Positions 3,844-61,967 of a stretch of DNA of 64,000 nucleotides are shown here, piece after piece; position 1 is the first letter of the stretch; each line of letters begins with the position of its first letter. The stretch lies in assembly GCF_007753265.1 (NCBI RefSeq), contig NZ_CP036349.1, positions 4,001,363 to 4,065,362 on the forward strand, written 5' to 3'. The position numbers and the translations under genes are program-made. The notes beneath the pieces were generated by a model. The model made no database searches and was not told where the DNA came from. It worked only from the letters and a program-made list of their open reading frames with translations. Source of the DNA: Botrimarina mediterranea (GTDB lineage: Bacteria > Planctomycetota > Planctomycetia > Pirellulales > Lacipirellulaceae).

Positions 3844-3916
3844 AACCACAAAGGAACGAAGGAACCAAGGATGGCCTCGCATAGAGAGTCCTTGGTTCCT
3901 TCGTTCCTTTGTGGTT
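3844..3916. repeat. perfect 28-bp inverted repeat
   Basis: Arms 3844-3871 and 3889-3916 match perfectly, with a 17-nt loop. The arm contains the word AAGGAAC(C/G) three times at an 8-9 nt period. It is followed at 3923-3957 by four copies of an AATCCGCA-like word, a motif that recurs at 52694-52725. There is no T-run. Confidence 0.95.
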
Positions 3917-20739: not shown

Positions 20740-20753
20740 CGTATCCCACATTC

Positions 20754-20841
20754 TGTAGGAGGCGTCTCCAGACGCCGATTACGCGCACCATTACATATAC
20801 GGCCGGCACACCGTAATCGGCGTCTGGAGACCCCTCCCACA
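20754..20841. repeat. GTCTCCAGAC hairpin, copy 1
   Basis: Arms 20754-20783 and 20812-20841 (30 bp) match at 28 positions, with a 28-nt loop. The arm sequence is the same family as 22984-23070 and 56432-56518 (GGGGTCTCCAGACCCCGATT with substitutions here to GGCGTCTCCAGACGCC). It lies 15 bp after the permease stop codon. Confidence 0.95.
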
Positions 20842-20948
20842 GATCGCTTCCGCTTCAGGTAAAGAGTGCTGCGGTGGTCGGTTGTCGCGCGTTCGTTTAG
20901 AGTGGGGCGTCCTCCCCCTCACCGCCCTCCCCTTCTTCGAGACCCGCC

Positions 20949-22934: not shown

Positions 22935-23131
22935 AACCACGGAGGCACAGAGAGCACGGAGGACGCACTGAGAAAGGTCTTTTTGTGGGAGGGGTCTCCA
23001 GACCCCGATTACGGTATCCATTCCGAAACGGCATGGAGCACGTAATCGGGGTCTGGAGACCCCTCCCACATTTAACCTCTCCAATTTTTTTCCTAAGTGC
23101 CGCCTCGGTGTCCTCGGTGTCTCTGTGGTGA
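22935..23131. repeat. hairpin inside a hairpin between queC and queE
   Basis: The inner hairpin is a perfect 30-bp pair (22984-23013 with 23041-23070) with a 27-nt loop, a member of the GTCTCCAGAC family. It sits in the loop of an outer imperfect pair (22935-22973 with about 23091-23130) made of the word CCACxGAGx repeated every 8-9 nt. A T-run at 22980-22984 lies between inner and outer left arms. The element separates queC from queE. Confidence 0.93.
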
Positions 23132-45594: not shown

Positions 45595-45630
45595 AGAGCC
45601 GGGCTTCGCTTGCGGGGCCCGGCTCTTTTC
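45595..45630 (+). terminator. intrinsic terminator of pnp
   Basis: AGAGCCGGGC (45595-45604) pairs with GCCCGGCTCT (45617-45626), followed by TTTTC. It lies just before the left arm of the inverted repeat at 45636. Confidence 0.9.
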
Positions 45631-45635
45631 TTTGG

Positions 45636-46202
45636 AACCGCCAAGACGCCAAGAGCGCCAGGGATCGCCAAGAGCATGTTGAGAGCTTGATCGTGCCACG
45701 ACCTGAGTACCAAGATATTAACGTTGAGTGCTGGTTGCATGATGGCAAGCTTAGCTCTATGACACGGTCGGTTTGTCTCTTTCACAGTGACGCCGAACGG
45801 GGGACGCAGTTGCGTAACGCGGTAGCCGAGCTTTCCGAAACACAAACGCGATGCTTACTGTCGTTCGAGGCTTGTGATCGACCGCAATCGGTCAGTTCGC
45901 TTCAGCTCCGGTGGATGAAACCAACAGACGATTTGGCCGTTATGCACGTCGAATCCACTTCTAAGGGTTCGGTGACCGTGACTGTTACATCGCATGGCGC
46001 AGACGCTTTGTGCCAGGCGTTTGAAAAGTGGCTTCAAGGGCATGAAGACTTCGCAGTCGATCCAGAGTGCTCGGGTATATCTCGCCGCAACTTGAAGGCG
46101 CTCGATCGATCTTCACTTGATATCTGGTTTTGGGGTCCGCGCTACGTCAACCCCTAGAATTGACTCTTGGCGATCCCTGGCGCTCCTGGCGTCTTGGCGG
46201 TT
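45636..46202. repeat. 39-bp inverted repeats enclosing a gene (filled CGCCAAGA element)
   Basis: The arms 45636-45674 and 46164-46202 match at 38 of 39 positions, with 489 bp between them that hold one complete gene (45693-46157). The same arm sequence (AACCGCCAAGACGCC start) forms compact hairpins without a gene at 54915-55081 and 61784-61967. The arms are built from the word CGCCAAGA at an 8-10 nt period. No transposase gene or target-site duplication is evident. Confidence 0.93.
45693..46157 (+). CDS. hypothetical protein carried between inverted repeats
   Basis: The product has 154 residues from GTG 45693 (MPRPEYQDINVECWLHDG); a TTG two codons earlier is also possible. I recognise no family. 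It is a soluble, mixed alpha/beta protein with no signal peptide or membrane helix, with Trp-rich ends (VECWLHDG, LDIWFWGPRYV) and a central LSFEACDRPQSVSSLQLRW. Its base composition is visibly more AT-rich than pnp or the kinase on either side, suggesting acquisition. Its whole coding region lies between the 39-bp arms. Confidence 0.7.
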   Translation: MPRPEYQDINVECWLHDGKLSSMTRSVCLFHSDAERGTQLRNAVAELSETQTRCLLSFEACDRPQSVSSLQLRWMKPTDDLAVMHVESTSKGSVTVTVTSHGADALCQAFEKWLQGHEDFAVDPECSGISRRNLKALDRSSLDIWFWGPRYVNP

Positions 46203-47036: not shown

Positions 47037-47775
47037 TCCGAGCCGCGACCGTCAGGGACGGACCAAACCGTTCAGCTACCAAAGACCGCCTTGTATTCGA
47101 GATCATGCGATGACAGACAACGTTAACGATTCGGAAGGCGCCGAGGTGGACGCATGGTACGAACGTAAGTCTGAGCTCATGGCATCAGTACTTGGCAAGC
47201 CTGAAGATTGGGTAATGCACGCCATTATCCCATACGATGTTGGTGGAAGGCTTGATCAGTACTTTTACAGGTCGTTCCAAACCGGCACGGCGATGGCGAC
47301 GAAGGAATTGTCGCTCTTGCCAGATCAGGGGTCATCGAATGACAGACTCACGACCTATGAGATGGTTGGATTCATGCGTCCACCATTCACCGGTGAAGAC
47401 GCTGGCAATCTTGAGACAACCTCGGGTCGAATCTATCGACGACTCGACATCTTTATGAATGCGTTAGCGCGTTACAGCGAGCAGGCGACTCTGAATCCAT
47501 ATGAAACTAGCGCGGTTCCGAAGGTCGATGAGAGCGAATCCGATTACCCCTTGGTAATCTTCGACGAGTTTGCAAAGTTCGATTTGGGTGACAATCAAAC
47601 CTTTGGATTGCTCGCCGTTATCGAGATTTTTCCCAGCGAGTTTGAATACAAGCAAGAAAATGGCGGTGACGCCCTGATTGACTTGTTGAAGCAAGAGGGC
47701 GTCTATCCCTTTACGGACCCGAACCGCTCACCCGTGGTCTAGTGTCTGGTCGCTCCCTGACGGTCGCGGCTCGGA
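47037..47775. repeat. 22-bp inverted repeats enclosing a SUFU gene
   Basis: The arms 47037-47058 and 47754-47775 are perfect over 22 bp (TCCGAGCCGCGACCGTCAGG start), with weaker complementarity for ~14 nt further inside. A single gene (47110-47742) fills the interval. The related word CCGAGCCGCGACCGTTAG recurs at 48681-48698. Confidence 0.92.
47110..47742 (+). CDS. suppressor-of-fused (SUFU) domain protein
   Basis: The product has 210 residues from ATG 47110. The SUFU pattern is visible: HAIIPYDVGGRLDQYFY, TGTAMATKELSLL and YEMVGFMRPP in the middle, and the diagnostic C-terminal stretch LAVIEIFPSEFEYKQENGGD followed by ALIDLLKQEGV and DPNRSPVV. Bacterial SUFU proteins are common as immunity proteins in polymorphic toxin systems, but no toxin gene is adjacent. 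Base composition is much more AT-rich than both neighbours, and it sits between 22-bp inverted repeats, so it looks acquired. It interrupts the order kinase, SDR, regulator. Confidence 0.85.
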   Translation: MTDNVNDSEGAEVDAWYERKSELMASVLGKPEDWVMHAIIPYDVGGRLDQYFYRSFQTGTAMATKELSLLPDQGSSNDRLTTYEMVGFMRPPFTGEDAGNLETTSGRIYRRLDIFMNALARYSEQATLNPYETSAVPKVDESESDYPLVIFDEFAKFDLGDNQTFGLLAVIEIFPSEFEYKQENGGDALIDLLKQEGVYPFTDPNRSPVV

Positions 47776-50500: not shown

Positions 50501-50594
50501 GAATGACGAAATCCGAATGACGAATGACGAAGCTGCTTGTAGCGGCTAGTACCCTCCGACAGGTTCGTCATTCGTCATTCGGGCTTCGTCATTC
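50501..50594. repeat. ATGACGA-type long hairpin, copy 2
   Basis: Arms 50501-50531 and 50564-50594 match at 29 of 31 positions. The loop carries TACCCTCCGACAGG as in copy 1 at 2742-2755, but here the facing left-arm bases have diverged (CTGCTTGTAGC). It lies between the regulator stop and the mutL start. Confidence 0.93.
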
Positions 50595-54393: not shown

Positions 54394-54915
54394 ATGCACC
54401 GCCTCTTCCTCATCGGCTATCGCGGCAGCGGCAAGAGCACTGTCGCGAGGCTCTTAGCGGAACGGCTTGGCTGGGCGTCCATCGATTCCGACGACGAGGT
54501 CGAACGCGAGGCGGGGAAGTCGATCGCCGCGATGTTTGCCGAGGACGGCGAGCCGGCGTTCCGCGACCTCGAAGAGCGGGTCGTCGCGTCGCTCTGCAAC
54601 CGCGACAAGACGGTGATCGCCCTCGGCGGCGGCGCCGTGCTGCGTGAGGCTTCGCGACGGCGGATGACAGCTGCGGGGCAGGTCGTCTACCTCACCGCGC
54701 CGGCGGCGACGCTCGCGGCCCGGATCGCCGGCGACGCGACCACCGCCAGCCGCCGACCTAGCTTGACCGGTCTTGCGGGCCTCGAAGAAGTCGAGCGCGT
54801 GTTGGCCGTCCGCGAGCCGATCTACCGAGAGTGTGCTACGGTTGCGATCGACGTCGATGGCCGGGCGCCCGAGGCGATCGCCGACGAGATCGTGGGCCAC
54901 TTCCAAGTGAAGTGA
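54394..54915 (+). CDS. aroK: shikimate kinase
   Basis: The product has 173 residues. ATG 54394 begins MHRLFLIGYRGSGKSTVARL with the P-loop at residues 8-15; an earlier in-frame start would translate repeat sequence. SIDSDDEVEREAG binds shikimate/Mg, VIALGGGAVL follows, and RxP (SRRPSLTG) is in the lid. It acts directly after AroDE in the pathway. Its TGA stop overlaps the first base of the CGCCAAGA hairpin at 54915. Confidence 0.95.
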   Translation: MHRLFLIGYRGSGKSTVARLLAERLGWASIDSDDEVEREAGKSIAAMFAEDGEPAFRDLEERVVASLCNRDKTVIALGGGAVLREASRRRMTAAGQVVYLTAPAATLAARIAGDATTASRRPSLTGLAGLEEVERVLAVREPIYRECATVAIDVDGRAPEAIADEIVGHFQVK

Positions 54916-55081
54916 ACCGCCAAGACGCCAAGAGCGCCAAGGGTCGCCAAGAAAAAGTGTCAGAGTGGATTAGCTGGATCGACGGGATGGCTTTGACTTC
55001 AACTCATCCTGTAAATCCTGTCGATCCCGTCTAAAAAATCTATCCCTGGCGATCCTTGGCGCTCTTGGCGTCTTGGCGGTT
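54915..55081. repeat. CGCCAAGA hairpin, empty copy 1
   Basis: Arms 54915-54951 and 55045-55081 match at 35 of 37 positions; the sequence is the same as the arms at 45636 and 46164. The 93-nt loop contains related words CATCCTGTAAATCCTGTCG and GGATCGACGGGATG that can pair imperfectly. It lies between the aroK stop and the start of the prepilin peptidase gene (ATG 55086). Confidence 0.93.
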
Positions 55082-56431: not shown

Positions 56432-56518
56432 TGTGGGAGGGGTCTCCAGACCCCGATTACGCGCACCGCGCCGTTTCGGAATGCCTACCGTAATCGGGGT
56501 CTGGAGACCCCTCCCACA
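56432..56518. repeat. GTCTCCAGAC hairpin, copy 3
   Basis: Arms 56432-56461 and 56489-56518 are perfect over 30 bp. The 27-nt loop contains GCCGTTTCGGAATG, the reverse complement of CATTCCGAAACGGC in the loop of the copy at 22984, so this copy is inserted in the opposite orientation. Confidence 0.96.
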
Positions 56519-61783: not shown

Positions 61784-61967
61784 GGAACCGCCAAGACACC
61801 AGGAGCGCCAAGGTCGAAGAACTTGGACAGGATCGACAGGATTCTCAGCATGAGGGCTTGCCATGCAATGCCTTCAAACTGCTGTCAATTCGTCGTGTTG
61901 ATCCTGTAAATCCTGTCAAGTAATACTGCATGGCGATTCCTGGCGCTCCTGGCGTCCTGGCGGTTCC
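61784..61967. repeat. CGCCAAGA hairpin, empty copy 2
   Basis: Outer arms 61784-61816 and 61934-61967 match with a few mismatches (GGAACCGCCAAGACACC against the inverse of GGCGTCCTGGCGGTTCC). Inside, ACTTGGACAGGATCGACAGG (61821-61840) pairs with the inverse GATCCTGTAAATCCTGTCAA, giving a second nested stem. It begins two bases after the TadE stop codon. Confidence 0.9.

Follow-up and report, generated by a model that had tools for sequence, protein, structure and literature searches.

We conclude that the segment at 45636-46202 of the window (the whole 64,000-nt stretch of DNA analyzed here) is very probably a passenger cassette in a dispersed family of hairpins that we call class A. In the full account that we favor, at a probability of roughly 0.6, the segment is a passenger copy of a class-A hairpin element, and the nuclease-family protein GxxExxY acts on the arms of such elements. 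That GxxExxY is the cognate mobilizer of the arms is, taken by itself, about an even bet.

Arms and position of the element

The element lies between the probable terminator of pnp and the ATG of a kinase gene. Its left arm starts 9 nt past the terminator, and the kinase ATG is 11 nt downstream of its right arm. The features in the window are:

45595-45626, + strand: probable pnp terminator, an inverted repeat and then a T-rich stretch
45636-45674, + strand: left arm of the class-A hairpin, built of CGCCAAG units repeated at intervals of 8-10 nt; it agrees with the class consensus at 37/38 positions
45687-46157, + strand: passenger ORF of 156 aa with a TTG start, with homologues at four distinct GTDB loci
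46164-46202, - strand: right arm, an inverted copy (38/39), 36/38 to the class consensus when scored at 46165
54915-55081, + strand: compact class-A hairpin with a nested ACAGGAT-type loop; arms 54915-54949 and 55047-55081 (35 nt, 97%, 97 nt apart)
61784-61967, + strand: compact class-A hairpin with a nested ACAGGAT-type loop; arms 61784-61810 and 61941-61967 (27 nt, 93%, 130 nt apart)

The arms of the element are 39 nt long, 97% complementary (38/39) and spaced by 489 nt, and as single-stranded DNA the element is predicted to fold with z = -8 (DNA parameters). The initial annotation had described a 39-bp arm match of 38/39 around a whole AT-richer gene, and had put these arms in one family with the two compact hairpins. 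Both descriptions hold, the enclosed gene being the 156-aa ORF. Two unrelated hairpins flanking the gene, a layout that had been named as incompatible with a cassette, is not what we find: the two arms do not come from two unrelated hairpins. The arm core occurs eight times in the window at up to three mismatches, compared with 1.18 occurrences expected, and none of 100 shuffles equaled that count. A search of the whole window against Rfam at the gathering threshold gave no match.

Hairpins of other kinds also occur in the window. REPIN-like GTGGGAGG/GTAGGAGG hairpins are at 22984-23070, 56432-56518 and 20752-20843, and the copy at 56432 has dozens of relatives in the host genome and in that of the sister species (G001). 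Hairpins of other alphabets are at 3844-3916 (AACCACAAAGGAACGAAGG) and 50501-50594 (GAATGACGAAATCCGAATGACGAA); the GAATGACGAAATCCGAATGACGAA alphabet also flanks an S23 gene in another genome (G006, locus L227).

Class-A hairpins in the host genome

The host genome is a single contig of 5.87 Mb. The start of the class-A arm has 91 matches in it at up to three mismatches, against 7 for a reversed control pattern, and 58 arms match at zero to two mismatches. All 20 pairs of neighbors less than 1.5 kb apart among these 58 are convergent, with none in other orientations. The earlier proposal that the arms act as the ends of a cassette is thus borne out, in that they are the ends of dispersed units. 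These 20 units range from 84 to 1102 bp; AACCGCC opens 18 of them and GGCGGTT closes 19. Thirteen are compact (<230 bp), and within 9 of the 13 a second hairpin, made of ACAGGAT-like units, is nested. The genome-wide search for further arm pairs and their cargo that the initial annotation had proposed also turned up gene-sized inserts in seven of the 20 pairs, all of them different:

Element 947763-948229 of the host genome: GxxExxY (TIGR04256, 138 bits)
REP-associated tyrosine transposase (NF047646, 115 bits), nested within its own GTAGGAGGCGTCTCCGACGCC arms
Genome positions 4409319-4410301: PEP-CTERM-like protein (L078), labeled from reading the sequence
104-aa membrane-like protein, labeled from reading the sequence
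312-aa membrane-like protein, nested in CCGCGGAG-type arms, labeled from reading the sequence
Broken small ORF
Passenger ORF 45687-46157

The class-A arm encodes the hydrophobic C-terminal segment of the PEP-CTERM-like protein, whose frame continues into the flank and ends KKRTC. Neither this protein nor the two membrane-like proteins had a Pfam match above the cut-off. The original statement that no transposase is present is correct for 45636-46202 but not for the arm family, which has copies with a GxxExxY nuclease-family gene and with the nested REP-associated tyrosine transposase.

Eighteen of the 58 arms lie outside pairs. For thirteen of these the search extended about 13 kb inward, and none had a mate of its own; the one partner that scored above 20 is an arm belonging to another element, 7.5 kb distant. 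With the junctions of the units set at AACC/GGTT, there was no target duplication of 2-8 bp at any of the 20 units, and the right flank begins with CC at 15 of them.

The passenger gene

The passenger ORF is separated by 12 nt from the left arm (at its start) and by 6 nt from the right arm (at its stop). Its GC content is 53% (57% at third codon positions); pnp has 67% (92%) and the kinase 68% (90%). The loop of 45636-46202 thus holds a gene of foreign composition. No credible family emerged from searches of Pfam, NCBIfam or PADLOC, and one homologue (L198) has a sub-threshold match to PF24409 (E 0.0045). A SUFU identity was considered and rejected: the AlphaFold model has a pLDDT of 63, and the best Foldseek matches, which are to SUFU (first row E 0.03, TM 0.41), are too weak. 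The gene after the kinase, at 47110-47742 of the window, encodes a SUFU domain (PF05076, E 5e-8). In bacteria, SUFU proteins often serve as immunity proteins.

Homologues of the passenger are rare. They were found in two of 96 other relatives, in none of 391 other genomes of the phylum sample, and at four loci in GTDB contigs, where the proteins at two loci are identical to those of the two relatives. The homologue in G023, a member of the window's family, is identical in sequence to one in Aeoliella straminimaris (Lacipirellulaceae, Planctomycetota), and on that ground the window probably comes from the Lacipirellulaceae. Identity between the passenger and its homologues is 26-37%. The Aeoliella gene has inverted TTAACCACGGAGG on both flanks, in another alphabet and over 13 bp only, with a score of 13 (below the threshold of 15); no arms were found at the other three of the four distinct loci. 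Relatives having the gene without arms had been put forward as an argument against a cassette. Three of four distinct homologues are indeed armless, but because these are distant (29-37% identity) and may not be orthologous, they do not refute the cassette.

The same site in related genomes

The comparison of the pnp-kinase interval that the initial annotation had recommended revealed both a compact hairpin without the gene and a different gene between the same arms. In the sister species G001, whose kinase is 88% identical, the same arms (36/38 each) have the same junctions and enclose an unrelated 244-aa gene. Ahead of this gene lies an ACAGGAT loop hairpin of which the left half is present, and this order of parts suggests that a compact loop was present first at the G001 site, before the 244-aa cargo. 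In G005, which belongs to another genus, the left junction is the same and is followed by a compact hairpin of 75 nt, and a right arm in decay precedes the kinase. The congener G003 keeps just the right arm (30/38) and has a GTGGGAGGCGTCTCC hairpin at left; G002, also of the same genus, has no arm. The junction TTTGG/AACCGCC is common to the host genome, G001 and G005, and the spacing arm-11 nt-ATG to these three and G003. Homologues of the G001 cargo occur in 5 other genomes of 97 (some matches are partial), and none of these five loci has inverted flanks scoring at least 15.

Because relatives have arms at the same site with different loops, the arms appear to be older than their cargo or to outlast it. 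Recurrent insertion into one spot is an alternative. Junction sharing and the decay of the G005 arm favor, without proving, an old element in which arms were renewed and loops changed. No class-A arm was found in G001, G002 or G003 at the places orthologous to 54915-55081 and 61784-61967, and G001 has other genes at the latter. Since two copies in the window are absent from three congeners, the comparison is most simply read as movement of class A after the split from these species.

The view that the window contains an empty-site/filled-site pair does not stand: the compact hairpins sit at other sites. In contrast, the claim that hairpin loops take up genes is upheld, because 7 of the 20 host pairs have inserts, an unrelated 244-aa gene replaces the passenger in G001, and G005 has the compact state.

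GxxExxY genes and their arms

GxxExxY (TIGR04256/PF13366) is a PD-(D/E)XK-type nuclease family. There are about 231 matches, summed over 45 genomes, from which we scored a mostly best-scoring subset from the relatives and 43 family genomes. After loci that were short or partial were dropped (5 of 30, 2 of 24 and 1 of 20), 66 loci were scored; L260 and L254 duplicate L109 and L241, leaving 64 distinct loci. In this best-scoring subset, inverted flanks score at least 15 at 62 of the 66 loci (60 of the 64 distinct). That score was reached by 8.5% of permuted flank pairs and, among 1500 random intervals drawn from three genomes, by 8; the 264 shuffled flanks peaked at 13, and kinase loci (n=29) scored at most 14. 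Three GxxExxY loci read outside the scored set, at 947828 in the host genome, C5:150422 in G001 and 630206 in G003, all have arms. D...ExK, a loose pattern, is present in 61 of 62 proteins.

The arms that enclose GxxExxY genes are built by repetition of 8-10-nt units; about ten alphabets occur, and a loose core, C[AG]CNNA[GT], recurs in most of the arms. The class-A element has iterated units of this kind, and a GxxExxY gene with arms of the same alphabet is present in the host genome (947763-948229). Arm classes were assigned by eye from the arms, before the tree was made; six distinct loci (L111, L127, L234, L248, L249 and L266) have no class label, and 4 of the 60 labeled loci gave no tree protein. 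When the 10 arm alphabets are mapped onto a quick tree of 56 GxxExxY proteins, 11 changes are required; the minimum is 9, the shuffled mean is 38.5, and none of 200 shuffles was as low. The class-A GxxExxY proteins of six genomes fall on one side of a tree branch, and that branch is unsupported. An automatic test of protein against arm similarity in pairs from different genomes gave a rho of 0.508, with none of 999 permutations as high. For 51 of 62 loci, compared with 5.1 expected, the nearest protein is among the five with the most similar arms.

The alphabets of the GxxExxY arms are A, F, G, G, H and J in the host genome, A, C, D, F, G, H and J in G001, and A, B, C, C, F, F, I and J in G003. 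Thus each of these genomes has exactly one GxxExxY gene with class-A arms, of the 6, 7 and 8 copies examined. Seven genomes have at least 20 class-A arm matches, and a class-A GxxExxY was among the copies examined in six of them (the host genome, G001, G003, G005, G007 and G013) and not in G030.

GxxExxY genes on plasmids and viral contigs can also have inverted flanks. At plasmid GxxExxY loci outside the Planctomycetota, only 4 of 8 score at least 15. In one, on a plasmid of Sphingomonas parapaucimobilis (L338, score at least 15), the gene has CGCGAAGGCGCGA-type arms and is between fabD and fabG; in another, on a Fusobacteria plasmid (L341), the gene is flanked by direct, not inverted, repeats (AGATTTAATCCGTGTACCTAT). 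Alignment identified two GxxExxY genes on viral contigs, both with inverted flanks scoring at least 15, and a single-sequence scan of viral contigs identified none. A GxxExxY model made from the two viral-contig homologues has a pLDDT of 49 and was set aside as too poor for comparing folds.

Several observations weigh against GxxExxY as a mobilizer. The genes and their own arms are physically linked and inherited together, so congruence between them does not prove recognition. In 464 kb of the host genome, 12 hairpins were labeled B, C or D by pattern (some B are closer to E), and the host genome has no resident GxxExxY of the B, C, D or ACAGGAT alphabets; the expectation that hairpin classes equal resident GxxExxY classes thus failed in this region. 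G030 has 30 class-A-like arms, and the arms of its single GxxExxY gene are of the CGCGGAG type.

The distribution of the genes among genomes is less informative. GxxExxY is present in 39 of 43 genomes, many of which have no class-A arm, and with so many carriers the armless state of the four genomes that lack it is weak evidence. The correlation of arm counts with GxxExxY counts over the 43 genomes is uninformative. Hairpin density varies widely, with 104 in 464 kb of the host genome, 3 in 400 kb of G002 and 17 in 400 kb of G003. G002 has no match to GxxExxY or to S23, and its scarcity of hairpins fits a role for GxxExxY. G003 has eight GxxExxY genes and yet only those 17 hairpins; 6 of the 14 printed are of the REP type, and none was labeled to a GxxExxY class.

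A possible mechanism and its significance

What is conserved in a class-A element is its arms (about 38 nt, made of 8-10-nt units in iteration); the loop is replaceable. Class A belongs to a wider set of hairpins whose arms mostly share C[AG]CNNA[GT] and enclose GxxExxY. Each GxxExxY protein may recognize arms of its own alphabet and could act in trans, whether a copy is compact, carries a passenger gene or carries GxxExxY itself. GxxExxY might, for instance, cut the extruded hairpin, and repair might then copy the element elsewhere, with no target duplication. The arms, their number and convergent pairing, the change of cargo at one site and the enclosure of GxxExxY are observed; that GxxExxY binds, cuts or mobilizes the arms, and the way in which the gene got into the loop, we infer. 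GxxExxY would be the most economical active partner for such elements, which would then function in the manner of REPIN-RAYT with a nuclease-fold partner. More tentatively, this class of hairpins could be widespread mobile DNA, with one GxxExxY nuclease per alphabet, neither transposase nor target duplication, and exchangeable single-gene passengers. As part of that reading, and just as tentatively, one chromosomal site would swap genes between sister species under unchanged arms.

If this account is correct, it provides a testable job for GxxExxY (TIGR04256/PF13366), a curated family without a functional description in the open-access literature searched. That literature also yielded no description of a link between GxxExxY and hairpins; the part of PMC8934634 available to us places a gene of this family near a reverse transcriptase. 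The account would also amount to a route of gene capture that uses no transposase or integrase, and would help to account for where small orphan genes come from. Lastly, the co-variation of protein and arms would be a rich natural source of specificity pairs for testing how a minimal PD-(D/E)XK protein recognizes DNA.

Alternative explanations

We consider it rather unlikely that GxxExxY is merely the most successful passenger, with the hairpins being passive, unstable sites whose arms are spread by some other factor and whose loops gain and lose genes through illegitimate or homologous recombination between dispersed arms. Passive sites would accommodate the unrelated cargos, the hairpins of other classes nested in loops, and the compact hairpins of alphabets that have no resident GxxExxY, and congruence of tree and arms is expected from physical linkage alone. 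However, GxxExxY holds its alphabet across genera, whereas other cargos occur with and without arms, and passive capture leaves the enclosure of 60 of the 64 distinct scored loci unexplained. We give little credence to an element that works at the RNA level, in which the arms would be an RNase III substrate in the transcript and the insert, excised or insulated, would be tolerated. The dispersal and the change of cargo would be left unexplained, and the arms of S23 genes have other alphabets, even though the hairpin prediction is strong (with DNA parameters), S23/IVP genes in these genomes are also in repeat-armed hairpins, and the element is placed between the probable pnp terminator and the kinase ATG. 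An RNA-level role could exist alongside mobility.

Very little weight goes to a REPIN-type reading, in which a RAYT (Y1 tyrosine transposase) moves the element. The layout of two inverted repeats with a spacer, together with singlets, is REPIN-like, a RAYT is present in one class-A copy, and GTAGGAGG/GTGGGAGG hairpins occur, but that RAYT sits in GTAGGAGGCGTCTCCGACGCC arms nested in the class-A loop, the class-A arms have no GTAG tag, and the gene that recurs in class-A arms of the host genome, G001 and G003 is GxxExxY and not RAYT. Hardly credible, to our minds, is a mobile insertion cassette (MIC) or MITE, that is, the ends of a DDE insertion sequence mobilized in trans by its transposase. 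Inverted ends, a passenger gene, an interior without a transposase and dispersed copies would all be expected of one. Nevertheless, none of the 20 copies has a target duplication of 2-8 bp, and none of the seven gene-sized inserts matches a Pfam DDE transposase family (50 aa of the broken ORF were scanned). The only transposase among the inserts is the Y1/RAYT within its own REP-like arms. Class-A arms are iterated units.

Comparison with known systems

The intervening sequences of 23S rRNA form a hairpin with or without a small S23/IVP gene in its loop. In contrast, class A is not in rRNA, and the S23 arms found here are of other alphabets. Four of the 30 S23 loci (L199-L228) were too short and were left out; of the remaining 26 S23/IVP (PF05635) loci, 23 exceed a score of 13.0, which is the 95th percentile for permuted flanks (the maximum for those 26). 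Their arms have units of 7-10 nt, among them AGTAGGC and GGTCAGG, that are distinct from the GxxExxY units, and this suggests that S23/IVP hairpins may be a second, parallel class.

The REPIN-RAYT system, as described in the available part of PMC3116915, is like class A in several ways: two inverted repeats and a spacer form a hairpin, there are singlets, and the elements are intergenic and multicopy. Class A has the same combination of doublets and singlets (20 convergent pairs, and 18 of 58 arms unpaired). As far as the accessible text of Bertels and Rainey (PMC3116915) goes, RAYTs are distinctive single copies for each repeat type; similarly, the GxxExxY genes within a genome are distinctive single copies, mostly with different alphabets. 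However, class-A arms are not GTAG-tagged palindromic REPs of about 20-40 nt. They consist of iterated CRCNNAK-like units, are 27-39 nt long in the window, begin with AACCGCCAAG and have no GTAG. The partner here is GxxExxY (PD-(D/E)XK-type) rather than a Y1 transposase, and class-A loops hold whole genes. The single RAYT found among the class-A inserts does not look cognate: its inner arms are of the GTAG type, with class A on the outside only.

In the sections of PMC3733652 available, a TIRYT (TIR-associated tyrosine transposase), like class A, has a gene enclosed by complementary repeats, which may occur dispersed as well, and GTAG/CGTC repeats are reported from Planctomycetes. The gene enclosed in a TIRYT is a tyrosine transposase, in contrast to class A, and the repeats are of another type. 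MICs, according to the portion of PMC3913671 available, resemble 45636-46202 in their inverted repeats, passenger gene and transposase-free interior. They usually have a target duplication, and the first MIC was mobilized by an IS transposase; class A differs, with a duplication at none of 20 units. No matching IS was seen among the inserts scanned. The cassette resembles a REPIN or a MIC in the way it works, and fits neither definition.
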